A stretch of DNA of 64,000 bases from Gracilaria domingensis. Taxonomy: Eukaryota > Rhodophyta > Florideophyceae > Gracilariales > Gracilariaceae. Of the stretch, positions 1,201 to 19,560 are shown one piece after another (position 1 is the first letter of the stretch; each line of letters starts with the position of its first letter). Where the stretch lies: positions 1 through 64,000 of the forward strand of contig VCMS01000019.1 of assembly GCA_022539475.1 (NCBI GenBank), given 5' to 3'. The notes under the pieces are model-generated. The model saw only the letters and a program-made list of their open reading frames with translations. It was not told where the DNA came from and made no database searches. Position numbers and translations under genes: made by a program.

Positions 1201-1279
1201 CATTCTTCCACACGGCTCAGGTAACGCTTCTCTCCCTCTCGCCACCCCTCACAGAAAGACGACATCCATAAGCTCGGAC

Positions 1280-3340
1280 ACATACATATCCTCGCCCTCG
1301 CCCACAAAAACTCGGAAAAGCCGTTCTGCTGACGAGCTCATCAAACATTGCATGCAAGGCAATCCCACCTTCACCCTCTTCTCCTCGTTCCAGACCCTCA
1401 TCACTTCCGCCTGCCGAATGTCTGAAACTGCACTCCAAAATCTTCCGAAGAAACAGTGCAGCTCCATTGGTTTCACCTCAAACATCATCCAGGGACAAAA
1501 ACCATAGACTTTCTCGCCAACCGGCTCTTCTCAGGAGACCTCCGTTCAAGGGTTCACCTACCGAGACAAGCGCGAGCGAGGGAGAGTCTTCTTTCGATCC
1601 AGTCAAACAAAGCTTCAAGAACAGGTAGGGGAACTAACCGCAATCGCAATCACCCTATGCTTCGGAGCCTCGGACGCCAATGTCGTTCCCGACTATCAAT
1701 GAAGCCTTGACTATACGCATTCTCCGAACCCCGACGTCATACTGTACAATCCCAGTATCCAACCGGGCCAAGACTACGTTCGTCTGGCCTCGTTCAAGCG
1801 ATATTCAGCTTACAGTCTTCCTACTCTTTGAAAAGTTTCCTCTGTACGTCGTATCCTCTTCTCAATCCACCTCTCAAATTTCAATGACTCCTTCCGCAGA
1901 AAGTGCAATCACGCAGAACTACACACTCGTCGGATGACATACCCACATCCTTCACTCCGATCTCCTCCAACTGACACAGATTCTTGGAACGTCGCTCCCT
2001 CAACCCGTCAGTCGTGACACGCCACTGGGTGCGCATTGCAGCTCGTCCCAGGAAGTCCTAAGAAACCATCCTCAAACACATCTGCTCACATAATCGGTAT
2101 GGAAGGAGGTTCTTCCCTTCCGCGACGCCAAAACGCCGGCCTTCGTCATGGCATCCACTCATCTCCAATCTACCACTGCGCTGAACATCCCCGAAGCCAC
2201 ACGTCAATGCTCTGGGGCGGCAGTAACTTTCATTGGCACAAATCCAAGCTAGAACGCCTGCCACCGGTTGTTCCATCCTTCGTTCAAATCACACCTCTAC
2301 AACTACTCAACCACAGAGCGAAGACCGCTCAAACACGAGTCATATGCAAAAACAAGCTCGCATGACTACCTTCTCCGAGGCAATATCGGCTTCCCTTCCC
2401 ATAGTCAACGGAGTTTGCAAGGAACTCACAAGAAGAAGCTGCAGAACTTTCTCCCTCCACCACTCGTCTCTCATCACCAAGTCTTTTTCTGGAAATCTTA
2501 CCCTCTTCTCACCATCTCTTCACGTGCTGCACTCCTATGTCAATCTTCTCGCTTCGGCCCCTTCACGACTTTTTCACCAATGCGCATCTAATCTCTAACC
2601 TCATCAAACTCGCCACAAATCGAACGCCTGAAGTCCTGTATTTCTCTTTCCACTTTGGGCGAATGGATCCTCCAGGTCGTTTCGGTCCATGCAGACATCT
2701 ATTCTTACTCGACACAACATCATCCTAAGCCTGACATCGAACGCTCGTTTCGCCGGCTCGCAGGGCTCAGTATTGACTCTCTCTCGATCATCGTGAAAAG
2801 GGTAAGTCTCTCAACGCTTCTTCACCATGAACGGAATTAGGAGGCATGCTAGAAGCAAAGGGACTATCGCGCCCTCGAACATTGGTCTTCCCCTTCATCG
2901 GTGCATTCTTCCACCAGTTGCTGGCGCGGAGAAGTATACTCTCCGCCGCACCAATAACCACCATATAATCTTCACCTCTTACGTCGAAATCGTCAAGTAA
3001 GGTTCTTCACTACCATCAGGTACTGCGTCCAAGAATGACTGAATGATCGCTTACGCTCTTTGGAGACTCTCATCAAGAACTTCAAGACTCAAACTGTCTC
3101 AGTTTTGGGTCCATACCAGACCTCCAACTTTCCGTACTCTCAAATTCTATCTCCTGGATCACATCATTCTAGACATCGTCGATACGGAGGCCTCCATTTC
3201 GGTGATGCAGGTGTGTACGAGCACGCGCATCTCCTCTTCAAGAACCACTACCGCCCGTACTCTCGCAGAAGATCAACTGCGCATAAGGAACAGTGGACTC
3301 ATCCAAGAGTCGCAGGATTTCTTACACTCCATCTAGGTAA
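1280..3340 (+). pseudogene. Broken DDE-transposase-like gene (KDZ/Plavaka-like)
   Basis: The recognisable part is near the end. At 3120-3175 one frame gives TLKFYLLDHIILDIV, and at about 3180-3285 another gives YGGLHFGDAGVYEHAHLLFK followed by a basic YR..SRRR stretch. The order K..LLDH, a short gap, GG, DAG.YEH.H...K and Y...S.RR is the C-terminal pattern of DDE transposases of the Kyakuja-Dileera-Zisupton and Plavaka/CACTA-related groups. Upstream (1290-2830) is a Ser/Pro-rich stretch and other plausible coding split among frames. A GTAAGT...TTAG interval of 39 bp near 2800 could be a mini-intron or chance. I see at least one 1-nt frame change inside the signature, near 3175. No intact catalytic triad was identified. 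Confidence 0.38.
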
Positions 3341-3633
3341 GGAAAATCTTTCTCCATGTCTACCAACTCAGCCAGTCGTTTGTAGCAGCGGTGTCCCTCC
3401 ATGGTTCGTGATGGTAGTTCATTCTCCTCTTCGACATCATCACGGCCGACAAGTATCTACGGTCCATCCAAACTTCCCGTCATCTGCTCTCACAGATTTG
3501 TTCTCCAAAACTACATTGCAGTTCATCAACCAAATCTCTCGCGACGCCCTCTCTTCCTTCCGTACCCTAAGCTTAGAAACTCTTCAACCGTTGGACAACC
3601 CCATGACATCAAAATCAACGTCGTTAACTCCGC

Positions 3634-6600
3634 TTACATTGTTTCTGGATTCTGCCCTCGCTGGATGACTACGATCGTCACTTTCAATGCATTAGACTGC
3701 GAGAGCCGGAGGTCTCTTTGTGTGACCGTATTTTTGCAACTACTTCTTTCGGCCGTTCCAAGTCCCCAAAATTCTCTACCGTCCTGGTTAATGGAACTCC
3801 TCCTCCCGGTTGTGACTTCCCGACCGCATGGGTATGCAAAGTCTTTGCCCTGGTTCGCTTTAGCAGATGTAACCAAAGCAATTCCGATTCTGAATTTGCC
3901 TTTGTTCGCTTCTTCGAGGTAACGGAGCCGTTGGATAACATTGACGAATCCTTGAACTGCATTTCCGTCCGCTGGGCCACGGATGACGAGGAAGATCACA
4001 CATTGCAACCTCCAATTCTCTAAAACGGTCAACAACTGCATCTGTATCCCCATGGTTCGGTCTCGTCCCATTCTCTTCGATCAAAGGCTCGGTACACATC
4101 CTCCGACAAAACTATCCCGCACGCCCCTTTTTCCCTCTATTGCACTGGAAGTTCCACCGATTCTACATTAACAGATTCTATCGCAATCCCCGAGCTCGTT
4201 TACACTACCATCCAATCACCCAACTTTCGTAACGTAAACCATAATGCATTAGTGACGTTCTATCCAATTCTCCTCATGTAATCCTTCTTGCACAGACCTT
4301 TCCCTCACATCCCTCTCTGCAGTTATGTCGTAGAACATACGGTCTCCCCGACTGCAGCATCCAACATAGCAATCCAGTACACCTCCGAGCTTCTCAGAGA
4401 TCTCTCCCATAAACACATCTTCTAGGACAGCAAGGTACATTTTCCTTTTCGACGGAATCCAGTAAACCACAGTGCCCACCCGGTCATCATTTCCATGCGG
4501 CGCATCTTCAGCATTCGATGGGCCATTTCTGAACTCTGTTGGATAACTCTGCTGCATGCGGACCCTCACGGTCTTCAGTATACTCTCAAGTGCCAGTGGT
4601 AGATATTTCCCGAACAAGTTGGAGAACAACACTTGTCTCTTACCACCTCTCCCTCGTTCAGACTCTGTCGCGCGAACAACGGACGCTATCCAGGCATCAA
4701 GACTGCCAGATGCATAATTGTTCCATCCACTGGATCCCTCTCTTCGGTATTCCTCGAACTTGTTTTTAAAACGTCGTAGCCCATGAACTCACGCAGCACC
4801 TCCAAGCTCAGGCTGTTCCGAAAAAGCAAGTCACATGGTTCATCTTCGGTTGCATGATATGGGTTAAAGCCCGAGAAACATATATCTTCTACCTTCTGAG
4901 TTCTCCACGACGACAGAATCTCACATCCATTTGCATCTTTGGGTAGGAGTTTTTCACGTACCTCTCTGGTTTGTATTTCATACTTGTTCTGCTCCCTTTC
5001 ATCATTTTTTATCGGGGTCCTTACAAGCATGTCGTAACCTAGTCCCATCAATAACTTCTCCTTCGCATGGCGTTTTCGAACACCTATGCATCACTTAAAG
5101 CCTGTTTCAACCTTCTGCGCAAACAAATGTCGTGCGTTAACTGTTTCACACAGTCATCTTCCATTTTCATTCCTCGGATAGATTCCCAACGTGGCTTCAT
5201 TACCTCCGTCTCCACAATGTGCATCAACAAATGGTCGCCTCCACCACTTACGGATGGCGTGTACGCCCTCATCTCCATGGCAAGATCCATTGGGCACCGT
5301 GGCACTATCTCCTTCCCATCAACAACCAGCACACTGTCGTCTTTCTCAGGTCCAACTGTCTCACTTCGGTTGCCCCAGTTCCTTGCCGGTATACTCATCT
5401 CGAAGCATAGCTCTCTTGTCTCGTCTTTGGCGTATTGAAGTATAGAGTCATAGACGGTCTTCGCAACACCAACAAACTCGTCGTTCACGTCAATATTGTA
5501 CCGCTTCCTGCTCTTGTTACTGTCACGTTCGTTCCTTTTCCCTCCACGTCTGAGAGCCTCTCTCCAAAGAGTGTATGAGAACCTCTTGTTCTCTGACCTT
5601 AATCTCCAGTTGCTCTATGTTCTTCTGAGCAAGTCGCACGCTCATTTTCAGACTTTGCTTGTCCTCTATTGTACGATACAGATCTCCTTCAGTTTCCCGA
5701 TCTTTTCCAAAAGCTCGTATCTCGGAGTAAGGGATTCATCTTCATCTTCTTCCATTGCACCATGCAGGGAAAATCTCCGTGACAAAGCACCACGATCAAC
5801 ATCTTTATCGTTCCATACTTCTCTACGGGCGTTTGCTATGACAGGTTGCCGATCGTTCCCCACCGGTCTATTCTCATTTCCATGGTTCGTCCTTCTTCTG
5901 ACCTGATTGAACCTGTTTCTCTGTGACTCACCTGTGACTGGTGTCGGTTGTATCTCGTCTTCGTCTTCGTCTTCCTTGTGTCTGGACCCAATATGAGGGA
6001 CGGAATCATGCCTGCCTTCGATGGGAGCCATATGCGTTGCATTTCCGGCGTCCATGTTGTCGTTCGCCTCCACGTTATCCTTGTCCTCGACGTCACTTGG
6101 GATATCTACTGCGTACGTGGACTTCCCGCTCCTTTCTCCACTGAGACACCCTCATTCATTTTCTCGTTCCTCTTCACTTTTCTCGAATCATAACTGTTAC
6201 GTTCTGTTCCGGCAGCGCTTCTGGGTATCTCCCTATCCCCAGGTTCGGCTCTAGGTTCGGCTCTCACGATGGCGCAATCCACGGTTTCCATCTCCGCATT
6301 GTCATCCGCAGTTCTCACCTTGTCGAACAATCATCGATACGAGGACCTTCTGTTCCTCCACTGCCTCTTGTCCTCCTTACATTCTGACGTACAGCCGTTC
6401 TTCTCTTATTTCCTTTCATCGCTTTTGATATCTACATTTCCATCATCACTGACCCTTGGCTCTTCCATTGCAGCCATGTGGCGTGTAACAGGCCCACGCA
6501 TTGCACTATCCTTGGCTTGAACGGTTTCACTTACTGTGCGTTGCGTAGTGCATGTGGAAGCTCCTGACCTCCTTCTCGGTTTTACTTCCGATACTGTAGA

Positions 6601-6783
6601 TGAAGATTTTGGTTTGCGAAGTCCAGCACGAGGTGCTCGGCCTCGGCTACCTCTCCCATTAGTAGCACTACTTCGTGAGACGACCGCGCTCCTACGTTTG
6701 GCCACCCCAGTATCCCAGTGCTCCGGCGGTACCGATGCCTTTCTCGGTTTACCACCTGCATGCTCCGCACGTTGAGGAGCCAT
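3634..6783 (-). pseudogene. Fragmented unknown protein gene
   Basis: A chain of - strand frames reads like one degraded gene. It starts at an ATG at 6783 (MAPQRAEHAGGKPRKASVPP) and continues through pieces at 6330-6106, 6073-5666, 5488-5084, 5051-4686, 4632-4249 and perhaps 4071-3634. The first piece is basic, with an AT-hook-like GRGSRGR stretch, which suggests nuclear localisation. The piece at 6073-5666 has an acidic run (KEDEDEDE). Gaps between pieces are 33-178 bp, mostly too short for the introns seen in host genes here, so I favour frame damage over splicing. No family was recognised. It is convergent with the transposase-like remnant and in line with the methyltransferase gene upstream. 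Confidence 0.35.
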
Positions 6784-7249
6784 CCGAGATCCTTCGGCCT
6801 TCGTGCGCGGTAGTATTACGGAACAGATATAGAAACGAGAACGATACTGAAGGTATATGATTGAGAGTGATATGTGAGGGTCACGTACTCGGTGTGCAGG
6901 ACTGATATGTGAAGGGGAGGGGAATTTAACCTCGTACTGCATATATGGAGAAAGCATTCTGCAGCATTTGTGGCGGATCGGCATTCAATTTTGGACCTTT
7001 CCCGGGTCCATATTCCGGACTTGGTCCGGTTTTCCCGGATGTTGCGCCCTGCATATACAAGTACGGCACTTTCAACGATCTTTCATACCACTATATGCAT
7101 CAATATGTTACACAGTACAGCTTGAGTGTACATATGAGTAGTATTTCTGCAATCATAGCAGAAGTGTTCAATACAATTACTTCAACAAAAAGCTTTTCTC
7201 ACTACATTGAGCCCATACGAAGTTCAAGGACATTGTCTGAGAACCTAGG

Positions 7250-7870
7250 TTAACCTTTCCAAGGATATGTGGGTCCATAGTCAACGTAAATTTCGTCGTG
7301 CTCCTTAATGTCCCTTGAGGCCGTGACTACGAGGAGTCTGTAGTTCTCCAAAAGCCCCAAAGTTGTAGCCTGATACTCTGTGGGCTGGCGAATGAATACA
7401 TTTGGTTTGCGTGCCATGTTAGAATCCATTTCTTCCAATTCCTTGTCTTCATCACCTTCACAATATGACGCGTCATTGATATAGCCCGCTACACAGAAAG
7501 GAGCAGGAACTATCCAGGCATGACCAGCGTTGACTTCAGTATCATAATGCGGGAGAGTGTTGTACATTTGCCCCTTCACCCTCACTTGCATGCAATACTT
7601 CCTGAACCGAGATGCAGTGGCCCCCAGCATTCCGTCTCCATACGTCAAATGTGTGGTATTGCGTCGGCTTAGATCATGATACACCAAGGTCCCATAAAAG
7701 TATCCAATAACCTCCCCTTCGGAAAACGCCCTACTCGTAATACTCCATTTCCACTTGCTGCATGTTTGATATTCGACTTCTTCACATAGAGCCATAGCGA
7801 TGTCGCCTCGACAGAGAGTAAAGTGTGACTGTCCAACGTAGTCATCTTCCCTTGTAAGGCAAGTGGCCAC
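7250..7870 (-). CDS. SET-domain segment following the methyltransferase
   Basis: The frame encodes a SET-type lysine methyltransferase domain. The first motif is GEVIGYFYGTLVY, the Asn-Pro-Asn region is CVAGYINDASYCEG followed by KPNVFI, and the C-terminal motif is DIKEHDEIYVDYGPTY, matching the usual GEEI..DYG. The canonical NHSC reads NDAS here. No Cys-rich pre-SET or post-SET region is visible. There is no ATG at the start of the frame, and it overlaps the end of the methyltransferase frame by about 200 bp in another phase. The simplest reading is that SET was the C-terminal half of a methyltransferase-SET fusion, joined by a frame change. Substrate is unknown; histones are the default expectation for the family. 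Confidence 0.7.
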   Translation of the reverse strand: MATCLTREDDYVGQSHFTLCRGDIAMALCEEVEYQTCSKWKWSITSRAFSEGEVIGYFYGTLVYHDLSRRNTTHLTYGDGMLGATASRFRKYCMQVRVKGQMYNTLPHYDTEVNAGHAWIVPAPFCVAGYINDASYCEGDEDKELEEMDSNMARKPNVFIRQPTEYQATTLGLLENYRLLVVTASRDIKEHDEIYVDYGPTYPWKG

Positions 7871-9810
7871 TCATGGAACGGTTTCTCTTTGTACGTAGTG
7901 ATAAGACCAGGTTCATTCCAATAGGTGGATAGGTACGACATGATATGGAATGGGAAAGATTGGTACGATGGGAATCCCTTGGGTGCATTCCATACAGTCG
8001 AAGTCTTTCGTTTCCGTTCAGGAAATTTGGCATCCACCACATAAGACGCTTGAACTACCTCATTCGTAACCGGTTCTTTCATCTTCAATTCATTGCGCCA
8101 CACCTTTCTTGCGTAATGCACAATAGCATTGTGCTTGGCATGAGAGAAATACTGCTCATCTTGCTCACATCCAATGAAACGCCGAGGCTCCTCAATATCC
8201 ATACATGCTAGCGCGCACGAGAACGTCCCGGAGTAGAGATCAACCACAACATCCCCGGGATTCGAGAACCTCGCTATCAGCTCCATCAGTAGTTGCCTCG
8301 ACTTTTGTTCTGGACGAGCCTTCGCGGTTCGAATTCTTCTACCACTCTTCACTCTCCATCGGAGGCTCTCCCCAGGCGTAAGATTTGGAACCTGGTCAAT
8401 GATAGAATAGTGCCCAGGATAGCGAGCTGAAACGTAGTTGAAGTTCTGATAGTTCACCATTACCTTCTGTTCCGCGTACGGGTTTCCATTCCTCACGCCA
8501 TGCACGGCGTACTCCGTCGCCCCAAACAGGCGAGTAGTATTACGCGCAGGGTTCTTCAAGGGGTTCGAACGAGAACGAATGAAGTTCATGGGCGTCGAAT
8601 CCACTAAGAATGATGCGGTTTTCTTTCCGCTTGCGTCCTCCGACTTGTGCTCTCGCAAAATCTCTTCCCAGTCTCCAAACTGGTCGATACTGCAGAACAA
8701 AGCGAAATGTCCTCCTGGTCGAAGCATGGATGCCATGATGTCCGCAGTATTGTCCATATCATCGTCAGCCAATTCGTCGTACTCGCTGTCGCGGATGCCA
8801 TATGGTGGGTCTGTGAGCACGAACTGAACGTTGCCTTCCAAAGATGTATCCGATGGGAAGATAGTACCATGGGCCTCCACCAGTTCGTCATATCCGACAC
8901 AATGCATTGAGAATTGCTTCTCCATGCTTCCTCGCACCACATCTAGAGCATTTAACGTGCGTGTGTCATCAAAGTCATGAGGGGGGAGAACCCCATCTGG
9001 AACGTTATCTTTCGCCACAACAGAGGCACCAGGTGTATCACCTTCTTCATTGTCGCTATCGAGAATGACGATGACATCGGAGTTAACTGAGCTTTTCCCT
9101 GCGGCGTTCCTCTTGGAGGAGCTCGGAATCTGTATCGAGTCCTCAACCTTAACCGTGACGGTATTACTTCCTCCATCCTGCCCTGAAGGAGCGGCCCTAG
9201 GGATAAGTCGAGATGGTTGGAGGTTATGTACAGACATCGCTTGACGAATAGAAGACACGTACTCTTTGGAGAATACATTGAAACGGGGTGGTACTCGTGC
9301 GGGGCGGCCAGGTCTGAAGCTTTCCAACAAATTCCATCTTGACGTTGGGGACATTTTGTATAGGAAGCCATTCAACACAATCTTGCTGAAATCTGCCAAG
9401 AATTCCTTTGCCAGCTCCCGTAAGTTGGCGTCGATAGTATCCGGAAGAGTATGAACCCAAGAAACGGTGTCGTTCACATCCAACGTGGGTTTCAGTTCTT
9501 CCCCCAGCGTATGAAAAGCTGACTCCGGACTGTACCCAACAGAGCGGGATTCAATGACATGGAACCCAAGCGACTTCTTTTCTACAAGCAGGTATGGCAG
9601 CAACATCTGCTCACCATCACCAAAGCCTAAGGTTGAGGCAAAGAAATCCCATCCCTTACAAATCGTTTGCACTGCATGTGCCATTCGTCTCCCGTGCCTC
9701 TCATTCGAAGCTATGTAGCCGTCGACGAACTGCACAGCTCTATGGGTTCCCTTCTCGGTCCTTCCTCTCTTCGCCGCTGGGAGATTTCTCTCCGAAGTTA
9801 TATGCTTCAC
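7669..9810 (-). CDS. DNA N6-adenine/N4-cytosine-type methyltransferase
   Basis: The frame has a circularly permuted amino-methyltransferase core: catalytic motif TDPPYG at residues 333-338, then the AdoMet-binding block FSNPGDVVVDLYSGT at 515-529 followed by RFIGCEQDEQYFSHA. This is the beta-class order (catalytic motif first), as in N-4/N-6 DNA methylases. Residues 1-230 form an unrecognised N-terminal domain. Residues 244-256 (SDVIVILDSDNEE) look like a SUMO-interacting motif. The last 60 or so residues overlap the SET frame and are probably not native. The in-frame ATG is at 9810, but coding-like sequence continues upstream toward 9916 in other frames, so the real start may be the ORF at 10410. 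The sequence cannot tell adenine from cytosine as the target. Confidence 0.75.
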   Translation of the reverse strand: MKHITSERNLPAAKRGRTEKGTHRAVQFVDGYIASNERHGRRMAHAVQTICKGWDFFASTLGFGDGEQMLLPYLLVEKKSLGFHVIESRSVGYSPESAFHTLGEELKPTLDVNDTVSWVHTLPDTIDANLRELAKEFLADFSKIVLNGFLYKMSPTSRWNLLESFRPGRPARVPPRFNVFSKEYVSSIRQAMSVHNLQPSRLIPRAAPSGQDGGSNTVTVKVEDSIQIPSSSKRNAAGKSSVNSDVIVILDSDNEEGDTPGASVVAKDNVPDGVLPPHDFDDTRTLNALDVVRGSMEKQFSMHCVGYDELVEAHGTIFPSDTSLEGNVQFVLTDPPYGIRDSEYDELADDDMDNTADIMASMLRPGGHFALFCSIDQFGDWEEILREHKSEDASGKKTASFLVDSTPMNFIRSRSNPLKNPARNTTRLFGATEYAVHGVRNGNPYAEQKVMVNYQNFNYVSARYPGHYSIIDQVPNLTPGESLRWRVKSGRRIRTAKARPEQKSRQLLMELIARFSNPGDVVVDLYSGTFSCALACMDIEEPRRFIGCEQDEQYFSHAKHNAIVHYARKVWRNELKMKEPVTNEVVQASYVVDAKFPERKRKTSTVWNAPKGFPSYQSFPFHIMSYLSTYWNEPGLITTYKEKPFHEWPLALQGKMTTLDSHTLLSVEATSLWLYVKKSNIKHAASGNGVLRVGRFPKGRLLDTFMGPWCIMI

Positions 9811-9915
9811 GAAAGAGAGATAGAGTAACTGCTGAAAACGAGTGGGAGGCCCAATCCTGAACGTAGTTCTCTTCGTCTGCTTACTGCCTGGACCATGTCG
9901 TTTGAAAAGGTCATT

Positions 9916-10410
9916 CTAGAAAGCCCGTTCTATGAACGAGTTACCGTTGTCGACATCCTTTTCAAGACTCCAGGTAAACAAATCTCTCACGCGCCGATCA
10001 GAATTCTCGTCGTCTAGATCAGTGATACGCGTATATTTGTAGACTCTGCTCAGAAAACGCACGTCCAGACAGATCTTCGTGAGTTCTTTTGCGGAGTAGC
10101 TTTGGAAAGGACCCTTGACCGCAGTGGTGATGAACTCTCGTGCACATGCCAGGTGTTCACGGTTTGATACAGCGTATTCCACAACTTCCGTGTACCCAAC
10201 TTCACGCGGATTACCAGTACCACTTCTTGAAGCGGCATACGCATCTCGCAACTCAATGAACAACCCCCAACATTTCAAGAAACGCGTTGCCATGCTGGCT
10301 GAATCGAACGACGTGCTAGAGGATGCGCTAGAGGATACCGTGCCGTGGTTCTCATCGGCCAGTACACTCTGCTTAACAGTCCGAGGAGCGTCATTTCCGG
10401 TGGACGCCAT
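9916..10410 (-). CDS. Unknown protein, probably N-terminal part of the methyltransferase gene
   Basis: A 164-residue frame from ATG 10410 (MASTGNDAPRTVKQS) ends 105 bp before the first ATG of the methyltransferase frame. It has a Ser-rich linker and then an alpha-helical stretch with no recognised motif. The spacer to the methyltransferase is also open for about 35 codons in a different phase. I infer that this is the true N-terminus of the methyltransferase-SET protein, separated by frame damage or a very short intron. An independent small gene is possible. Its start lies 280 bp from the inverted repeat that separates it from the divergent ParB-like gene. Confidence 0.45.
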   Translation of the reverse strand: MASTGNDAPRTVKQSVLADENHGTVSSSASSSTSFDSASMATRFLKCWGLFIELRDAYAASRSGTGNPREVGYTEVVEYAVSNREHLACAREFITTAVKGPFQSYSAKELTKICLDVRFLSRVYKYTRITDLDDENSDRRVRDLFTWSLEKDVDNGNSFIERAF

Positions 10411-10690
10411 GTAAGAACTGAGAATCGGAAAGGACGCGAAGTAAACGAGTATTGTGAAACGGTAGAAGTTTCGGAGATGTTTAAATGGGTGGGAAGCGTC
10501 GGAAACGTCGGGAAGCGTCGGAAACAATGGTGGAGAGCGCGGTTGCGACGGATTACCGAGAACTGAGCGGGTAATGAAATAGAGATACGAGAGTGGGATC
10601 TAAACACATCAAACCGGTGTGGCACCTCAGTATGTGCAGTGCATTATATGTCTAGTATGTAAAACCAACGTAGAAAACACTGGGTTCGTA

Positions 10691-11324
10691 CATCTTTGAA
10701 CATCGCCCGAGCGCCGTGTGGGAACCGCGGTTCGCCGAGTTCATAGCCGAGATCATAGCTATGATCTCGGCTATGAACTCGGCAAACCGCGGTTCCGGCA
10801 CGGCGCATCTGACGAAACGCCACGTGTATACCGCCGAAAGGACCCCCCCTGAGGACCCCCCTGGAGGACCCCTTGCTGGCGTTTATGTGGGCAGTGACGT
10901 CGAATAAACGGGAGAGCGATGGAGACGCGGATGACACTTCGGACACATTGTGTAGCAAGCGTGGAAGACGGAGGGGAAGGGCTTGAGGAGGATAGACGAT
11001 GCGGTGGGAGCGGAGCAGCGCACGGAGGGCGGCGGCCATCGACTGGGCGTCACTTATTCACTGCCCACATAAACGCCAGCAACACCACCAGGTAGTGGTG
11101 GTGTGGGTGAGAACAGGTGCTTTGGTGCGCATTGTGTAGTAGAAGTGGTCTCCAGGGGGTCCTCAGGGGGGGTCCTTTCGGCGGTATACACGTGGCGTTT
11201 CGTCAGATGCGCCGTGCCGGAACCGCGGTTCGCCGAGTTCATAGCCGAGATCATAGCTATGATCTCGGCTATGAACTCGGCGAACCGCGGTTCCCACACG
11301 GCACTCGGGCGATGTTCAAAGATG
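10691..11324. repeat. 634-bp inverted repeat containing two 76-bp palindromes
   Basis: The left arm runs about 10691-10897 and the right arm 11058-11324. The outer ends are catctttgaacatcgcccga and its reverse complement; the inner ends are ttgctggcgtttatgtgggc and its complement. Each arm contains a palindrome centred on catagctatg and flanked by ccgcgg. The right copy is perfect over 76 bp and the left has one mismatch. The right arm carries about 68 extra bp (11083-11150) with its own small hairpin. The 160-bp spacer (10898-11057) is unique. It sits exactly between two divergent coding blocks. No target duplication is visible at the ends. Confidence 0.85.
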
Positions 11325-11574
11325 ATGAAAGGCGGGGACAGTGGTCAACCAGGACGGAATCAGACATTGATCCAACCATTTATAACCATCAGGAACTGTA
11401 CCCACACTGCTCACGTGGGCATTGCAGCCGTTTTGAACGTGAGTGGTTGCGTCCATTGTGCTCACGCGAGAAAGGGTGGAGATTCGAACACGAGCGGTTG
11501 CAACTTCACGGGAGCAAACGTACGATTTGAAGAACACCAGGACTCGTGTATATCACACACACTGGCACCATATA

Positions 11575-14121
11575 ATGGATATGAGGGGACTGGGAAAGGG
11601 TCAAATGAGACGCTCTCGAAAGGTGAGAAAGCCTCGACGAACCATGGCACTACAACTTCGGAGCGGGACCAGAACTGCTGAACCGAACGCAGCGACGGGG
11701 AACGCATCCACAGCTATGAAGTCGAAGCCCGCACCGGGCGAAGAAGTGACCTTGTTGTTGGGAGGGGCAGGAGGGAACAAAGCAGCGATTGGGAAAGCTG
11801 TTCTCGTTGAAGTGGACGCTGGTGGAGGGAAGACAACGTTCAGAAGGGAAATGCATGGACATGCTCTGCAGGGAAAACCAGGGGAAGATGTAGTTGGTAT
11901 ATGGCGAGCGAAGATATCTCATGAGCTTGACACTCCCTATCCCTATCCCTTTAAGTGTACCGATGAAGATTCCGTTCCGAAGACATTGAAGGACATGAAC
12001 AGGCCCGGTTTCTACGCCTGGGACCTGAACTTAATGTCTAAGGTGGGTGACGTCGTAAGCGCTGATGAAGGGGACAAGGGTGCTCCGAGTTCCAAATTCG
12101 TCGCCCCTGAGAAGCCATCGAATACTGCTGGGAAACGGGTGCGAGTGGTAGAACCTAAAACTCCATCCAGTGCGCGAAAGCGAATGCAGATGAAAGTGGC
12201 TCATGTGAAAACCCCGTCGAATGCTAAAAAACCCCAAGGCGGGAAACAAGCGCCAGTACCAAAGCTGAAAACACCATCGAACGTTCACGGTGGTGGAAAG
12301 CAGATGCAAGAATTCAAGATGACCACGACCCCAGAGAGTGCTGTATCGGCATTTCGTAAACAAACTGCTACGATTGTGCAGTCTGGAGCATCGAGGAACA
12401 GCACTGCGGAAGCTATTACTCAGGCTGGAAATCGCAGTGGAGTGACAATGGAAGTGATTGACGTGGATGAAGACGAAGACGAAGACGTGGTTCTAGTGAA
12501 GGAAAGCCTTGGAAGCAACGTCAATGAACTCTTTGATGAAGGTGATGTGATACCTCCTGATGATGTCGATACGAGTTTAGCGAGTTTGGTATTTGACTTA
12601 CATCATTACGAGTATGTGTCTGTTCAAGTCGATATTGAGCTCATTCAAGTTCCGGAAATGACTGTGAGAGGGTTGTTCCGGAATCATGTCGAGGCTCTGA
12701 AAGAAGAGATTGGACGCAAAAGCTTCTTACAGGCACTTGGGACCATGAGCGTTGCTGTTCTGTCTCAGGATGTGTCCGAGAAGGACGTAGTGCAGAACAA
12801 TCGCTTGAAAGTGAATTGTGTGCTGATTGATGGAGCTCATCGTCATGTAGCACTCAAAGAGCTCTGTGAATCTATGCCCAACATTAGGAATCTATGTGGA
12901 GGTCTTTCTGTTTTGCTGTGGAAGAGAAAAGATGGACAGAAGATGACCACGAGGGAAATCTTGAGCCTTGGCAATGTGCTAAACGATGGATTGAAGCAAG
13001 CTCGTCTTATGGGTTTTGCTGACAAGGTGCATTGTATTGTGTCATTTATAAGGGTCCTGGTTGAGGAAGAGAAGAAGGACTTGAGCAAGATGACGAGGAC
13101 CTCTGTCGCAGGTGCACTAAGTGTTTGCGGTATCATTGGCCAGTACAATATCAAGCATTTGGCAAGATTTGCAGAGATGGGGTTGAAGGTGGCGAGAAGT
13201 CCTGGATTGCTGGAATATTTGGAGCGGATTTGTGGGGACTACCATGAGATTGGAATTTCTTGTATATCAAGTGATGAATTCTTTACCATGGATGAGCATA
13301 CAACCCACTTCACGCTCGACGCTCTGGTTGCATACTTTTCCAGGAGGCGAGTGTCGAAACTGACGGGTCGTTTTGAAGACGTACGCAAATACTTCTTTAT
13401 CTGCTGCAGGAGGCTTCAATCTTTGCCAGAAGAGCTTTCGAAGAAGAAGAAAGTTACATCGGAAGAAGCGTATGCCATGAAGGTGGAAGTGACAAAGTTT
13501 GAAATGCGCACCGTTCGTGAGTACCTTGCAACACAGGCAGCGCGAATTGAAGTACCTTCGAATAAGAAGCTCTGGGAAGGAAGGATTTCGAGAAGAGTCT
13601 GGATTGCTCGTGATAAGCTGGCAAAGAGTTTAGGGGTGGATATGTTGAAACCTGCCACTGGTACTACGCCGACTGAACCACAGTCTGAGACCAAAGCGGT
13701 AGACGAGTCTACAACACAGAGAATGGCCACACGTTCGGCAAGTAGGAAGGTCAAAGCGCCAGTGCGCAAGGGCTCTAAGGACTCTGATGTAGAAAGTGAA
13801 GAGAATATGCCATCGAAGACAAAAAGCATGAGGAGTTCAAGACGAAGCCGTCGACGAAGGAATGCAATGAGAGACGTGAACCCTAATCAACGGAAGAAGT
13901 CAAGGACGGAGGGTATTCAATCTGTTCAGGATGAAGTTATCAGTCATCTGCGGAGTCTTGGTGCGAAGGGGGTGAGAAACTTGTTGAAAAGTCATCAGAT
14001 ATCCATTGGCAGCGACACAGACTCAGATGGAGTACCAATTGTGGTCTCACAGGCAGAGGACACTGACCCCTTCGATGACACAGTACCGCAGGTGTTGGTG
14101 CCAGGTCTGAAGAAGGCTTAA
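11575..14121 (+). CDS. ParB/sulfiredoxin-fold-like nuclear protein
   Basis: An 848-residue protein from ATG 11575; the frame is open further upstream but without an ATG. The N-terminus is basic. Residues about 190-260 contain three TPS-type repeats (KTPSSARKR, KTPSNAKKP, KTPSNVHGG). Residues 293-305 (EVIDVDEDEDEDV) form a SUMO-interaction-like acidic motif. Residues about 348-440 resemble a ParB/Srx N-terminal domain: VDIELIQVPEM, then NCVLIDGAHRHVALKEL, matching the family's DG.HR..A core. The rest is helical. The C-terminus has a basic nuclear-localisation-like run (RRSRRRRNAMR). The same frame stays open for about 70 codons after the TAA, so this may be the front half of a longer protein that included the next ORF. 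ParB assignment is from motif only. Confidence 0.55.
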   Translation: MDMRGLGKGQMRRSRKVRKPRRTMALQLRSGTRTAEPNAATGNASTAMKSKPAPGEEVTLLLGGAGGNKAAIGKAVLVEVDAGGGKTTFRREMHGHALQGKPGEDVVGIWRAKISHELDTPYPYPFKCTDEDSVPKTLKDMNRPGFYAWDLNLMSKVGDVVSADEGDKGAPSSKFVAPEKPSNTAGKRVRVVEPKTPSSARKRMQMKVAHVKTPSNAKKPQGGKQAPVPKLKTPSNVHGGGKQMQEFKMTTTPESAVSAFRKQTATIVQSGASRNSTAEAITQAGNRSGVTMEVIDVDEDEDEDVVLVKESLGSNVNELFDEGDVIPPDDVDTSLASLVFDLHHYEYVSVQVDIELIQVPEMTVRGLFRNHVEALKEEIGRKSFLQALGTMSVAVLSQDVSEKDVVQNNRLKVNCVLIDGAHRHVALKELCESMPNIRNLCGGLSVLLWKRKDGQKMTTREILSLGNVLNDGLKQARLMGFADKVHCIVSFIRVLVEEEKKDLSKMTRTSVAGALSVCGIIGQYNIKHLARFAEMGLKVARSPGLLEYLERICGDYHEIGISCISSDEFFTMDEHTTHFTLDALVAYFSRRRVSKLTGRFEDVRKYFFICCRRLQSLPEELSKKKKVTSEEAYAMKVEVTKFEMRTVREYLATQAARIEVPSNKKLWEGRISRRVWIARDKLAKSLGVDMLKPATGTTPTEPQSETKAVDESTTQRMATRSASRKVKAPVRKGSKDSDVESEENMPSKTKSMRSSRRSRRRRNAMRDVNPNQRKKSRTEGIQSVQDEVISHLRSLGAKGVRNLLKSHQISIGSDTDSDGVPIVVSQAEDTDPFDDTVPQVLVPGLKKA

Positions 14122-14230
14122 GAATTAGCATATGAAGGTGACGATTCGTGGCTAAAGTTGGTGAAGACCTTACCAAGCAAGTGGCCGACTGGAGTGGAGA
14201 ATTTCATTAAATCTGTGTACCCTTGGATGG

Positions 14231-15424
14231 ATGCGATACATCTCCAGAAGCAACACCGAGGCCACTTGTTGGAGCCCAAGGACTTTGAAAGTGTGCACCA
14301 TGCAGTCTTTTTGGCATGCAGGGTATCATGGCCATAAACTCCTGAACGCGGCAATGGGAGGCATGGAGGTCGACGAGAAGACGTTATGGGGGGATGCACT
14401 GAAGAACGACTCTCTTGCGTATGTCTATTTTGTGAAGAAGAACGTCGAGCTTCGAGACAGAGGTTTCTGTATTCTGGACGGCTTTGCATCGGATGGAGAG
14501 TTGGTGAAGCTGACAGAGAGTTTGAGCAAGCTCATTGACGGGGATGTTAGTGTGGAATTACTGGACTTCTTCCGAAGGGACTTCGAGAGGGCTCCAGACC
14601 TTAGGATACCAGAGAACCGAATCACATGGATACCGATCATCAACGCAGATGGTGGGAGGTACATGACTACGAGAAGAGGCATAGTGGATGACATGGAGGC
14701 AGCCGTAGAAAGACATGTGCTTGTGAAGAAGAGAGCTTTACTGGATGCCCGACTGGGACAGATATGTGCTTTAATGGGTTTACAAGATAATAGGGTGGAA
14801 AAGGAGAGGATGTATGCGCCGAAGACGGGGGGGAGGGTGTTATGCACCGCAGTTGGATGCAAGCGGCAGCAGTTACATACGGATTTCCCGACCTTGGCGA
14901 ATGAGGATAAGCTGGAAGAAAAGAAGAACCCGGGGTACTTTATGATGGTGTCCGGAAGTGTGTCGTTTCCAATTTGGGTATGTGAAGGGTCTCATACACA
15001 CTACGCAGTTACTCTCAAGGCATTTGAAGGTTTGGCACGGGGGATGTTTGTGAGGAAGTTTTTCCTTCCGCCTAAGTCTATATTTATTGGAAGAGGTGAT
15101 GTGTTCCATGCAGGCGCTTCAAATGAGGATGGAAGATTCCCCGAGATTCCCTTGTTTCGTTACCACATGTACATGGTACCTGAGAAATACAACCTCCCGG
15201 ATGCGGTACACCTTAACCAACACTTTCGACCTCAGTTCAAGGAGGATGAAGACCTGGTTAGTATGAAGGAGAAGAGGAAGAATCCAGAACCGTCGAATTT
15301 GGAGGAGGAGAATGATGAGGTGATAGTAGAGGAAGGGGAAGAACAGTATGAAGAAGATGACGAAGATGAGAATTATGAAGTGGAGGAGATTGAAAACGAT
15401 CTTGAGGATGGCGAAGAGGACTGA
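14231..15424 (+). CDS. 2-oxoglutarate/Fe(II) oxygenase-like protein
   Basis: A 397-residue ORF with a double-stranded beta-helix oxygenase pattern: H216-x-D218 in QQLHTDFP, then IWVCEGSHTHY, the distal metal His in GRGDVFHAGAS (H293), and arginines at 301 and 310 that could bind 2-oxoglutarate. This resembles the phytanoyl-dioxygenase-like and DNA-demethylase-like superfamily; I cannot name the subfamily. The tail (about 330-397) is strongly acidic and includes DEVIVEEGEE, another SUMO-interaction-like motif. The start is uncertain: the first 40 residues overlap open sequence continuing from the ParB-like frame, so the native N-terminus may be fused to that protein. It lies 109 bp downstream on the same strand and is probably co-expressed with it. 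Confidence 0.55.
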   Translation: MRYISRSNTEATCWSPRTLKVCTMQSFWHAGYHGHKLLNAAMGGMEVDEKTLWGDALKNDSLAYVYFVKKNVELRDRGFCILDGFASDGELVKLTESLSKLIDGDVSVELLDFFRRDFERAPDLRIPENRITWIPIINADGGRYMTTRRGIVDDMEAAVERHVLVKKRALLDARLGQICALMGLQDNRVEKERMYAPKTGGRVLCTAVGCKRQQLHTDFPTLANEDKLEEKKNPGYFMMVSGSVSFPIWVCEGSHTHYAVTLKAFEGLARGMFVRKFFLPPKSIFIGRGDVFHAGASNEDGRFPEIPLFRYHMYMVPEKYNLPDAVHLNQHFRPQFKEDEDLVSMKEKRKNPEPSNLEEENDEVIVEEGEEQYEEDDEDENYEVEEIENDLEDGEED

Positions 15425-15701: not shown

Positions 15702-16904
15702 TCAGCCAAAAGGCAGTAGATGTTGTGTCGGGGGTCTAGGGTGCTCACCAATGGCGCACAAGTATCGCTTTGCGTTGATTCTTGGTGCGTGTTTGACGAC
15801 TCCGGAGCATACAAGTAGTACAATGAACAAGGTGTTTGTGAGGAGGGGCGGGATACCTCTGTACGAACCAAAGGATTCGGGGTCCAAAGACTCGGAGAGT
15901 GTGTGTGCGAAGAAAACTGGGACCACTCTGTTCAGAAAAAGTCTGATAGAAAGCAGGAAATCCTGAAGGAACAAAGCTTTCCGGAACGAGTTTAGAATAC
16001 AACGGCAGTACGGATTTAGCCCTCTTCTCCGGTATACCACCCGATTGGAGAGCGGAACTATGTTGTTGAACGTATGTTTTGTAGAGAAATAGATCCCGAA
16101 TGTGTTGATGAGAATGGTGCAGAAGCCGAAGAAGAAACCGCCGGGGAAGAAGGAAATACATGCAGTTTTGAGAGAATCCATGACATCGATTGGAGGAGGA
16201 CGGAGCTGATAGGTGACGAAGATAGAGAGGTTGAGGACGATAAGCCCACCGATGCCCATGCCGAGGTATTTATTCCTCAGTGCCGAAACGGTGCTGGATG
16301 TGTGCGACGGAGTCATTGGACCATATGCGAGTCTACCATACCTTGTGGCGTGAAGAGAGAATGCCAATTCAAACAGAATAATGTGAAACATAGTTTCGAG
16401 CATGCTGTAAAGGATGGTGAATCCCAGTTGTGTTTGGCGGGAGGAGCGATCGTAGAGAAGAGCGTGTGTTGTGAGAGGCTTTATAATCCCATAGAGAGCT
16501 CCTATGGCTACTGAAACGAAGAGGGAGAATGCCAAGAGAGAGGATAGCGAGAGCATGTTCAGGGGATTATGTGAATAAGACCGAGCCTCTGACATGTAGT
16601 TGGGTAGCTCTGAAAGATTCCCAATTGTGTGGAAGAAGGGAGGATGTTCAGGGATTCGGTCATGAATTGAAACTTCGTGAAGTATGTCATAAACATCACT
16701 GAGTTCATCCAGCAGTTCGGGGGATAAAAGGGTCTGGACTCCTCGAACCGTGGCTTCCCCGGTGTCAACGTCGTACTTCAGTTGAAGGCAGTCGTCAAAG
16801 GTGATGTATGTCCTATGGGGAAATGCGTTGAGATGGATAGGTATGAGAGCAGTTTGGTTGCGAAGCTGTACATGCGATACCTTGTGGGTGTTTTGGAAGG
16901 CCAT
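15702..16904 (-). CDS. Multi-pass membrane protein, unknown
   Basis: An intact intronless 400-residue ORF (MAFQNTHKVSHVQ). The first 115 residues are soluble. Hydrophobic segments follow at about 117-140, 163-187, 212-232, 243-268 and 360-380, consistent with five membrane helices, with a basic loop after the fourth. I recognise no family. It converges on the oxygenase-like gene with a 277-bp gap and diverges from the gene at 17539. Its intact state, next to broken genes, means it could be either an element passenger or a host gene. Confidence 0.6.
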   Translation of the reverse strand: MAFQNTHKVSHVQLRNQTALIPIHLNAFPHRTYITFDDCLQLKYDVDTGEATVRGVQTLLSPELLDELSDVYDILHEVSIHDRIPEHPPFFHTIGNLSELPNYMSEARSYSHNPLNMLSLSSLLAFSLFVSVAIGALYGIIKPLTTHALLYDRSSRQTQLGFTILYSMLETMFHIILFELAFSLHATRYGRLAYGPMTPSHTSSTVSALRNKYLGMGIGGLIVLNLSIFVTYQLRPPPIDVMDSLKTACISFFPGGFFFGFCTILINTFGIYFSTKHTFNNIVPLSNRVVYRRRGLNPYCRCILNSFRKALFLQDFLLSIRLFLNRVVPVFFAHTLSESLDPESFGSYRGIPPLLTNTLFIVLLVCSGVVKHAPRINAKRYLCAIGEHPRPPTQHLLPFG

Positions 16905-17538
16905 TGTGAGCTCTGCTGCCTGTGAGTAGGTAGGAAAGAGGAGAAGAAATGAAGAAAGAAGGGGCGAGGAGAAGATATATTTATTGAGAACGAAACGAGC
17001 AGATATTACCTATAAAGAGGTGTATCGAAGGAGCTATATCTATGTTTTGTTTCCTTTAAGGCTTGTAAATTTGAAGTGAAGAAGGTGTTCATAAACGAGT
17101 GGCGAAATTAGCTTCTGTGATGGAAAAGCTATGAAGAGTACATGAAGAGTAAAATGTAGGGCGATGAAGAGGACGGAAGAATCATGATATGATGGTAGTG
17201 GTAGGATTTCTTTTCTTATACTACTGGCATGAACCATGTATGAAAAGGGACGCCCTTCTCGCAACGGTTGGGAGAACATGGAGAATGATAAGCATAGAGA
17301 GTGTTCAAAAGTGAAGAATTGTGCTAGTAAATATGAAAATAATTGCGATGCAGAGGTTGGACGGATATGAGCGGGTGCGGCGGTACTACAGTGTCATGGG
17401 ACGAAAGCGTCTACCCTTGGTACACCGTGATCGGTTTGCGAAGGAACGATCAGCGAGTTCTGTTCTTTTCGGCTTCCCTGATTTCTCTTCTTTCGATATC
17501 CCTTTTGCTCTTCTACCAGATCTTCTACCAACGGGACC

Positions 17539-18351
17539 ATGAGCGATGACGATTCGCGTTCGAACATTAGGTGGCCGTGGGAGTCGGACGAAGGGGTACG
17601 GTCGCACAAGAAGTTAAAGAGTGTGTTCGAGGAGGAGGAAGAAAAGGACGAGCTGGACTGGTGGGCCACTGCAGTGCTGGGGTGTGCCGCAGCGATGGGG
17701 ACGCGCATGGGAGAGGACGTGGGTCGACTGACGAAGAAGGTGACAGGGTTCGTGGTAAGGGAACTGTTGGGGATGAAAGAGGAGCAGAAGAAGATGATGA
17801 AACGCATTGAGAATCTGGAGGGGAGCTCGAAGGAGGTGAATGGGAGGAAGAAGGACGGGGTAGGGGGTGTGGAGGGAACGCCGGTAACTCCGGCGCCGAA
17901 GACGAAGATCGTGAACGGCGTTGGGGTAGGAGTGTGCATCGGAAGCGAGGACGAGGATGCGAGAGACTTTGTACCGGCGACGGATAGTTTTGGGGCGGAT
18001 GAGGTGATGGAGGGAGAATTGGTGAGGAAGAGAGGTCTGAAGAGGAAGGTTGGCGAGAAGAGGCCGATCCAACCGAGGAGTGTTGGGGTAGAAGAGGATG
18101 AAATTCAGCCGAAGGTGGAGAACAAGAAAGGAAAAGGGGATAGTAAGAAGAGGACACGGGTTGGGTTCAGGACTGTTCCGAAGCCGGTGTGGAAAGGGAG
18201 CAGTGTTGTTGGATACGAGGAGAAGTGGAGCTGGGAGGATGTTGTGGAGGATGAGGAGGAAACCGTTGAGAATGATGATGGGAAAGAATTTCGTACGCTA
18301 TCATTCGCGGATGTGGAGGTAGAGGAAGGAGATGAAGGTGCTTTACTTTGA
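17539..18351 (+). CDS. Acidic/basic nuclear-type protein, unknown
   Basis: A 270-residue ORF (MSDDDSRSNIRWPWESDE). It has an early acidic run (FEEEEEKDE), a helical segment at about 50-95 ending KEEQKKMMKRIENLE that could form a short coiled coil, a low-complexity centre, basic patches (RKRGLKRKVGEKRP, KKGKGDSKKRTR) that look like nuclear localisation signals, and an acidic C-terminus. No enzyme motif is visible. The opposite strand is also open over much of this span because of base composition; the + frame has the better start and composition. It diverges from the membrane protein gene 635 bp away. Confidence 0.5.
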   Translation: MSDDDSRSNIRWPWESDEGVRSHKKLKSVFEEEEEKDELDWWATAVLGCAAAMGTRMGEDVGRLTKKVTGFVVRELLGMKEEQKKMMKRIENLEGSSKEVNGRKKDGVGGVEGTPVTPAPKTKIVNGVGVGVCIGSEDEDARDFVPATDSFGADEVMEGELVRKRGLKRKVGEKRPIQPRSVGVEEDEIQPKVENKKGKGDSKKRTRVGFRTVPKPVWKGSSVVGYEEKWSWEDVVEDEEETVENDDGKEFRTLSFADVEVEEGDEGALL

Positions 18352-19560
18352 TTGAAGTGATACAGTAGTTGCCGGGTTGATGGAGGTAGAAAAGCGGTGG
18401 GGGAATGGATGTGCGCAACTACCATTTCATGAATGTTGTACTAGCCAGAGTTAGTTTACATTCATTATTTGTGTTTATTTGCAATCGACAAGTATGCAAG
18501 TGCCGTTGGTAGCTTCCAGATCGAGCTACCACCTAATCCGTCTGAGTATACTAGGTACAAAAACTTTCATGTCATGGAGGTGAACTAGCAATTATGTCCG
18601 CTTTCACTCATTCTACAAATTCTGTAGTATTGCTTGAATAAATGAAATGATGATATCCAAAATTTTTTTTTTGGCTTGCACATAGCCGTACATTCAATTC
18701 TTTGCACATTTTTTAACGATTCAATCCACAAAATAGCATTCTAGCCTCTTTACATAGCGTTCCCGAAACACAGACGTAGGGATGATTCCGGGTACTCGGA
18801 AGATATGAGTATTGGCCCACGGATGGGATCCTTTTTGGCAGTATTGAGGTATAGCACCCTCAGGGGTCGGCCATGACGTTGCGTAGATGAGTATTGGTCG
18901 CGTATACCCGTGTGTACGAATGGGTGTGTTTACACATGTTTTGGTATGATTGTCGGATATTTTACTGGCCGCTGCCACGGGTGGTCACGTGCACCACGGG
19001 TATGGACCTGCTTAGGTGTGCATTAGATTATTTAATTTAGTTTAACTAATTTATCGGCTACGATATAAGGGGTGACCTCCCTGTCACCTCCTCCTTCAGT
19101 GTCACCTCCTCCTTCAGTAAAGGGTAACCGAGTTCGGCTCTGAACCACGTTCGCATGCGCGAAGTGCACAACTCCCTCAGGAGGGTCACTGCGTACGGTA
19201 CGAACTAGATTCATCCCTCGGGATCATTCAGACACTACTGAGCTACACAGCTGTTGCCCTCGGGCTTATTTCCGTCTTCGGACCATTATTTCACTTGTCT
19301 TTACCTGCAGATTACTGCTTACCTGTGTTAGGTGAGTTTTCCGTCTCTGTACAGAGTTACTGCCGCGTGGGCTTAATACGCAACTCCCGTCTCCCGTCGC
19401 CGGGTCTGTTGCCGCTTTTCGCACGCCCCGCCGAGGGTTCCTCCTTTGCTTTTCCCTTCCTGTTCCCCTTCTATCTAGGGCTTACACCGCTCTGCGGTAC
19501 CTTTCCTCTTGACTATTCCGTCACTTTTCGCCGGACTCCTGGATCAGGCCCGTTCACCCC
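18352..19560. other. No gene seen; possible repeat-element edge
   Basis: Short frames only. The stretch at 19080-19560 has several short direct repeats (for example gtcacctcctccttcagt twice in tandem at 19081-19117) and could be a terminal region of the element fossil that follows, but I found no matching partner copy. Confidence 0.4.

Follow-up and report, generated by a model that had tools for sequence, protein, structure and literature searches.

Transposons that carry a single epigenetic enzyme are already known, with TET/JBP in fungal elements, SET in HarbingerS and Dam in DIRS. In fungi, Plavaka, KDZ and other elements carry TET/JBP genes, and Plavaka elements produce target site duplications (TSDs) of 2-3 bp (Kojima 2025, PMC12730594; cited papers are represented here and below by excerpts). 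The Phytophthora HarbingerS and MuDR elements encode SET methyltransferases (cited in PMC12730594), and among retrotransposons there are DIRS elements with a Dam-type adenine methyltransferase as well as elements bearing DNMT genes (PMC5890265). Arabidopsis VANC acts on the non-coding, rapidly diverging tandem repeats of its own element (PMC10398659), and the bdelloid N4CMT, a captured gene with an SPPY motif and a chromodomain, deposits N4-methylcytosine at transposons (PMC8885841). Here we describe a locus of the red alga Gracilaria domingensis, located in the first 64,000 nucleotides of contig VCMS01000019.1 (assembly GCA_022539475.1; this whole stretch is called the window). Positions 7250-15424 of the window are the interior of a ~20-kb autonomous-type, Plavaka-class DNA transposon with terminal inverted repeats (TIRs). 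Its observed parts are the TIRs, its own transposase, a high copy number, two co-conserved divergent fusion genes and a private palindrome between them. Gene B, on the minus strand, joins a DNA amino-methyltransferase to a SET domain, and gene A, on the plus strand, joins a part with a ParB-like motif to a region resembling 2-oxoglutarate (2OG)-Fe(II) oxygenases. We tentatively propose, at somewhat less than even confidence, that the transposon is selfish, with an epigenetic writer that targets the element itself and a probable eraser, and that these would be addressed or autoregulated through the palindrome, a mechanism that we infer from sequence.

The genome assembly (77.9 Mb in 680 contigs) contains the element in dozens of copies, mostly 94-99% identical. 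When ten fetched copies are aligned to the window, similarity ends at window 18774-18783 in eight of them; the exceptions are C266, which stops at its own contig end, and C293a, which stops at the edge of the fetched stretch and whose end was located separately. The right end of the element is window 18776, with the right TIR at 18762-18776 on the plus strand (CCCGAAACACAGACG in the window, CCGGAAACACAGACG in other copies). The left end lies ~1,371 bp to the left of window base 1, the window beginning at the contig end. The TIRs, CGTCTGTGTTTCCGG / CCGGAAACACAGACG, are seen in all 10 stretches fetched for right ends, in 9 of the 11 fetched for left ends, and in seven more right-end reads, some of which come from the same copies; C8 deviates in the last bases, and among the 11 left-end stretches inspected no left end was found for C293b and C161. 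Seven copies have both ends, at a distance of 13.2 to 23.1 kb (20.0 kb in C12 and 20.5 kb in C25). Four of these seven are flanked by 2-bp duplications (TA in C96, AT in C202, CG in C120 and AA in C25), within the 2-3 bp expected of Plavaka. The other three, C12, C233 and C293a, are without a target duplication; C12 and C233 have their right flank in common and that of C293a is C442's, and because these flanks recur at another copy the three look recombined or duplicated. The transposon-like island of a preliminary description of this DNA is therefore borne out by TIRs, transposase and dozens of copies, with a unit larger than the 7250-15424 interval to which it was assigned. The inverted repeat between genes A and B had also been considered as the transposon's terminal repeat, and this is ruled out, as the element ends elsewhere. 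Identical matches on separate contigs (C110/C440, C420/C469 and C253/C368) suggest haplotype duplicates, so that copy counts may be inflated.

The transposase, gene D, occupies window 1-4080 on the plus strand in a broken frame, and was identified as a Plavaka (CACTA/CMC-like) transposase from the homologous open reading frame (ORF) of C442 (L022:7420-9981:-), which matches PF18759 with E 3.9e-20 and 72.8 bits against a cut-off of 26.3. Matches to PF18759 across the genome reach E 2.1e-23, and an open frame of 1110 aa with no internal stops is present in C12, C247, C665, C227, C277 and C456. The Plavaka C(2)C and H(3-4)H motifs, which are expected between the second catalytic D and the last E (residues that we assigned by eye), are present in the C442 ORF as CHRC (position 436) and HLLDH (position 714). 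The preliminary description had pointed to KDZ elements; a KDZ element is ruled out, since the Pfam scan of the transposase gave Plavaka as the only family above cut-off and no KDZ family up to E 1. Like the fungal TET/JBP Plavaka elements, the element has a Plavaka transposase and TSDs of 2 bp, and its cargo includes an Fe(II)/2OG-oxygenase-like part, a kind of cargo proposed there to counter DNA methylation (PMC12730594). Its termini, CGTCTGTG..CACAGACG, match neither of the types given in the excerpts of that paper, TGT..ACA for PlavakaA and CATCA..TGATG for PlavakaB.

Gene B lies at 7250-10410 on the minus strand and comprises an N-terminal region, a beta-class amino-methyltransferase (LTDPPYGI ... 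VVVDLYSGTF) and a SET domain. In the window it is broken by a stop at 9916-9918 and by a frame change between about 7670 and 7870. Other copies show the fusion in a single frame, the N-terminal part with the methyltransferase in C8, and the methyltransferase with SET in C442 and C293b. In C12, judged by frame length, the open frame runs for 1118 aa without a stop. Both domains score above their cut-offs, as had been expected of an amino-methyltransferase with SET on this side of the locus. The N6_N4_Mtase domain (PF01555) at 8134-8829 on the minus strand (residues 363-594 of window:7672-9915:-) has E 1.7e-15 and 58.1 bits against a cut-off of 26.7, and E 1.2e-14 in C442. The SET domain (PF00856) at 7274-7738, also on the minus strand (residues 45-199 of window:7250-7870:-), has E 2.6e-5 and 25 bits against 22.4; in C442 it has E 4.4e-8 and 33.9 bits against 22.4, covering profile positions 1-105 of 105, and there the two matches fall within one open frame. 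Introns joining the ORF pieces of the window, judged by eye, were considered and dropped, as other copies carry longer uninterrupted frames. What had been counted as four genes are two divergent intronless fusion genes, single ORFs in other copies.

The methyltransferase also matches PHROG 67 (DNA methyltransferase, E 2.8e-26) and, in the PDB, DpnA and CcrM; its identity to phage methyltransferases is 24-28% over about a third of the length (12 of 182 matches listed). LTDPPYG precedes DVVVDLYSGTF, the motif for binding S-adenosylmethionine (SAM), and this is the motif order of a beta-class N6-adenine enzyme. In the SAM motif of C231, a copy of the second family introduced below, E replaces G. 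Bacterial N6-adenine enzymes have DPPY and most N4-cytosine enzymes have SPPY (PMC8885841), and because the motif here is DPPY, gene B is predicted to methylate adenine N6 in DNA. N4CMT is alike in joining a bacterial-type amino-methyltransferase to a chromatin module in a eukaryote; here the enzyme is transposon-borne, with DPPY and with SET. HarbingerS and MuDR likewise bear a SET histone methyltransferase on a transposon, though with another class of transposase and with no fused DNA methyltransferase mentioned in the excerpts, and the DIRS and DNMT elements have a DNA methyltransferase of their own, yet are retroelements for which the excerpts of PMC5890265 describe no SET fusion and no oxygenase partner. 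Relative to the fungal TET/JBP elements the SET-fused amino-methyltransferase is an addition, the excerpts of PMC12730594 mentioning no DNA methyltransferase cargo. In the open-access literature, which leaves most subscription papers outside, we found no description of a SET-fused DNA amino-methyltransferase in a DNA transposon.

Gene A, at 11575-15424 on the plus strand, is broken in the window by a stop at 14119-14121. In C140 and C434 it forms a single ORF that, counted from the proposed ATG, is about 1,282 aa long, and its ParB-like and oxygenase-like parts also share one ORF in C61. The ParB/Srx-like region at 12553-13350 on the plus strand is recognized by motif only, with VLIDGAHRHVALKEL, a GxxRxxA and a possible helix-turn-helix. 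GxxRxxA-type motifs belong to the ParB/Srx superfamily, and a short DGAHR-type motif by itself does not define that family; the pattern DGAHRxVALKEL is present in all three family-1 copies compared. The 2OG-Fe(II) oxygenase-like region at 14309-15262 on the plus strand is again called by motif only (HTD ... RGDVFHAG ... RYH). Its HTD, HAG and R, corresponding to the HxD...H...R triad plus co-substrate residue, are kept in the window, in C434 and in family-2 L059, and the decayed C2 copy (L064) reads HTY in place of HTD. The ParB and oxygenase names are therefore used at the level of motifs only, and an eraser role for gene A is probable but unproven. The plus-strand window proteins 11575-14121 and 14303-15424 match no Pfam family above cut-off. 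Genome searches with PF12851 or PF20515, models for TET/JBP or related dioxygenases, were without a match, as was their control. Weak matches of gene A were taken as chance (PHROGs "holin", E 0.015; a PADLOC orphan methyltransferase, E 0.039; PRA-CH, E 0.13-0.2), and two parts of it have only chance-level matches to phage (E 5). In contrast to the fungal TET/JBP elements, the oxygenase-like part here is fused to another domain and matches no TET/JBP model; the main text of PMC12730594, as excerpted, has 0 mentions of ParB, and its sole mention of "SET domain" is a reference title.

The pairing of the two genes extends beyond close copies. A six-frame search with gene A returned, beside close copies, 12 rows at 54-60% identity (best 53 of 660), and for at least five of the 12 a gene B in divergent orientation lies no more than 7 kb away. 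A second family, at about 54-65% protein identity to the first, keeps the divergent A/B pair; in its copy C231 (L059), the methyltransferase, the palindrome, gene A and a remnant of gene E (an ORF described below) follow each other in window order, the fetched stretch stopping short of the SET part. Between the families the ratio of nonsynonymous to synonymous substitution rates (dN/dS) of gene A is 0.13-0.18; gene B has a dN of 0.23, its synonymous sites being saturated. The divergent pair is under purifying selection between two diverged families. Within the family, where differences are few, gene A is near-neutral (0.87 and 0.92) and gene E stands at 0.57; near-neutral values are expected for transposon copies. 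Among the matches listed, a divergent partner lies within 7 kb at at least 29 of 50 gene-A loci and at least 29 of 59 gene-B loci, and of the 10 fetched copies, 7 match the window collinearly over the whole block of gene B, palindrome and gene A, in one alignment each (two for C273). For these counts the best candidates were scored (53 of 660 for gene A, 60 of 922 for gene B, 69 of 811 for gene C and 53 of 1820 for the transposase). Partner and neighbor counts used 50 of 60 gene-A, 59 of 76 gene-B, 67 of 78 gene-C and 53 of 63 transposase rows, the rows left out being second fragments in regions already entered.

A palindrome-rich inverted repeat had been placed between the divergent blocks, and it is clearly there. 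Its arms, at 10691-10860 and 11155-11324, are 170 nt long and 99% complementary, and each holds a zero-loop palindrome with arms of 46-48 nt of its own. The left palindrome (10711-10806, centre 10758/9) has a 44-bp core at 10737-10780, and the right one (11211-11302, centre 11256/7) at 11235-11278. From the centre of the left palindrome to the proposed ATG of gene B the distance is 348 bp, and from that of the right palindrome to the proposed ATG of gene A it is 319 bp, each palindrome standing upstream of its gene. In family 2 the palindrome of C231 is 140 bp long, with 65 of 70 arm positions pairing, and lies 391 bp upstream of gene A. Its 44-bp core, GAGTTCATAGCCGAGATCAT-RGCY-ATGATCTCGGCTATGAACTC, differs from that of family 1 at 2 of 44 positions, both central, despite saturated synonymous sites.

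The palindrome is also largely private to the element. The 34-bp inner core, at up to three mismatches, occurs at 106 sites per strand genome-wide, against 0 for the reversed control. Location was checked for 50 of the 106 sites; 47 have a gene A, B or C no more than 6 kb away, two further sites, on C120, fall between the TIRs (105751 and 118977) of an element, which brings the total with the element to 49 of 50, and the remaining site, on C127, is 16 kb from a gene C. It is improbable that the cargo acts outward, silencing or modifying competing elements, viruses or host genes as a weapon or in a host-beneficial function. Such action would suit the purifying selection on the cargo genes between families and the presence in the genome of at least one other abundant Plavaka-like lineage, but 49 of the 50 checked sites accompany the element, which favors self-directed action. 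The preliminary proposal that genes and repeat form one system holds in that they belong to one mobile unit, as the partner counts and the palindrome sites indicate; the double inverted repeat, however, is not a constant part of it.

The 1,351 bases of the intergenic region are matched at the best 40 of 106 candidates, in one piece at 30 (91-99% identity), partially at 3 and with the centre inverted at 7 (C12, C161, C166, C299, C532, C61:42763 and C25:726233). The spacer at 10873-11082, bounded by a perfect 25-bp inverted repeat, lies within the segment that is inverted in these seven copies, and because of the inversion we take it that the intergenic repeats recombine or are flipped. Recombining repeats, together with zero-loop palindromes having arms of 46-70 nt, would agree with the palindrome being a structural or RNA element (a hairpin or source of small interfering RNA, a replication origin or a recombination site) and the enzymes being independent cargo. 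We consider this rather unlikely, given that the palindrome is positioned 319-348 bp upstream of both genes in family 1 and 391 bp upstream of gene A in family 2, and that the window has no Rfam family at the gathering threshold.

Genes A and B contain few GATC sites (3 against 13.6 expected in A, 5 against 11 in B), while the palindrome core has two, a pattern that we treat as a lead only. Dam methylation times the transposition of some bacterial transposons, and the methyltransferase of gene B, being of the bacterial/phage amino-methyltransferase type (PHROG 67, DpnA, CcrM), could similarly serve transposition, with methylation of element DNA timing excision or replication and with the palindrome as an operator or replication-related site. 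The GATC pattern would fit such a role. Even so, it appears unlikely to be the explanation, as it renders the SET fusion and the oxygenase-like partner superfluous; GATC is moreover one of 16 palindromic tetramers inspected, of which others are low too (CGCG, 1 against 5.9 in gene A), and it is also low, though less markedly, in the rest of the window (135 against 168).

In the self-targeted writer and eraser that we favor, gene B would use its DPPY methyltransferase and SET domain to mark the element, with N6-methyladenine in the DNA and methyl groups on the histones. Gene A, through a DNA-binding ParB-like front and a 2OG-Fe(II) oxygenase-like part, would oxidize or remove methyl marks there. 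One of the two proteins, most likely that of gene A, may bind the palindrome, and such binding would confine the activity to the element and decide how strongly each of the two divergent promoters works relative to the other. As a result, the element would escape host silencing, or control it, in a sequence-specific manner. This escape logic is comparable to VANDAL/VANC anti-silencing, with dedicated enzymes instead; both systems would have a transposon-encoded factor acting on the element's own non-coding repeats, which in the excerpts of PMC10398659 diverge rapidly, whereas here there is a conserved palindrome along with enzymatic domains. CpG hypermutation, which 5-methylcytosine (5mC) would leave as a trace, is not seen among the copies (57.7 C-to-T changes per 1000 CpG sites, 52.7 per 1000 sites at other C), a result that is compatible with protection from 5mC without proving it. 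In the open-access literature, most subscription papers lying outside it, we found no description of an oxygenase-like fusion that is paired with such a methyltransferase fusion across a conserved palindrome. Whether the element amounts to a fully self-contained selfish epigenome, with an N6-adenine and histone methyltransferase as writer in one polypeptide, a DNA-binding oxygenase as eraser and a private palindromic address conserved across families by which its own copies are marked and unmarked, is more doubtful. Should the element work as proposed, it would constitute a natural system that rewrites DNA and histone marks at addressed loci, and with it one could test directly whether self-control by transposons makes use of N6-adenine methylation; the strong conservation of the palindrome makes the idea testable.

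Several observations weigh against the self-targeted writer and eraser. The canonical SET motif is of the NHxCxPN type, and that of gene B reads INDASY...KPNVF, so that SET activity is uncertain. In gene A, the earlier call of a ParB-like domain survives as a motif and finds no profile support. No Pfam family was matched for ParB, PDB profile matches are at chance level, and hhalign against seven SopB/P1-type ParBs gives a probability of 0.06%, a negative that is weak because the profiles are shallow and narrow. A bacterial-genome scan with a ParB query, which gave three close relatives, was left out of account. In family 2, DGAHRLVA is intact in two of five copies (L059, L063) and altered in L060, L061 and L062. 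The 2OG-Fe(II) oxygenase call fares similarly, the HxD...H...R pattern being kept in two families and the TET/JBP-type assignment finding no profile match; the expected 2-oxoglutarate-binding R is replaced by L in C140 and C61 (two of the four family-1 copies compared), eight members gave no Pfam family up to E 10, and the oxygenase-like region has no PDB profile match. AlphaFold models, with mean predicted local distance difference test (pLDDT) scores of 30 and 29, are uninterpretable, probably due to a shallow alignment, and add no structure support for ParB or oxygenase. The arrangement also varies. C61 is without a gene B beside gene A, and C20, C25:324440, C146, C200 and C294 have a single palindrome, so the double inverted repeat is not obligatory. 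On its gene-B side, C231 has a 40-bp, 85% palindrome like the outer arm, ~295 bp upstream of the proposed ATG and without the core. Finally, the palindromes of the two families could also have stayed alike through gene conversion or exchange.

The element carries three more genes. Gene C, at 4249-6984 on the minus strand and in a broken frame in the window, encodes a protein without an assigned family (homologue L009:3243-5156:-). It has a 953-aa open frame in several copies, no Pfam family above cut-off and nothing informative in other profile libraries, and it is convergent with gene D, within 4 kb, at 41 of 53 gene-D loci (best 53 of 1820 candidates). Gene F, at 17482-18351 on the plus strand, is an acidic 289-aa open frame with no Pfam family above cut-off. 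Gene E, at 15702-17009 on the minus strand, has an open frame of 435 aa, four hydrophobic segments and no family match, and 6 of the 10 fetched copies keep the frame open over 425-436 aa; the gene represents a membrane-type protein inside a DNA transposon, on the pyrimidine-rich strand. This conserved frame, the intron-poor large genes and the DNA-modification enzymes could also reflect descent from a large DNA virus or a virus-like source, and giant Plavaka-flanked repeats lie beside endogenous giant viruses in Amoebidium (PMC11244446). We regard a viral origin as very improbable. No capsid, packaging ATPase or polymerase is above the Pfam cut-off in the six genes, an IMG/VR short-peptide scan, a weak test, gave no relative of gene A or B, and the TIR, TSD and transposase are of the DNA-transposon type. 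Many cargo genes of the Amoebidium repeats are described in the excerpts of PMC11244446 as tyrosine recombinases, unlike those found here.

Some minor features of the element and its surroundings were also recorded. Compared with other copies, window 1-3000 has 8-11% extra bases and 3-6% mismatches, against ~1.5-2% mismatches further in, and the first 3 kb of the window look like a poorly assembled contig end or an older copy. The left end at L037:4780-5800 contains diverged direct repeats with spacings of 456 and about 554 bp. Just beyond the left end in C293, at L037:2424-4124, are two adjoining open frames with no Pfam match up to E 1, which give the impression, and only that, of a fragment of another mobile element. 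The second abundant Plavaka-like lineage of the genome has 1100-aa open frames that match another part of the profile (positions about 41-272), for example at C23:30979-31752 and C186:17332-18102. An Elicitin search gave no match, with a control that was uninformative. Elsewhere in the window, 25832-47929 holds intron-poor host genes of a kind that would be unusual in a mushroom, encoding a Sey1-like GTPase (810 aa), a proteasomal AAA ATPase (423 aa), a RING protein and a proteasome subunit, each in a single long open frame.

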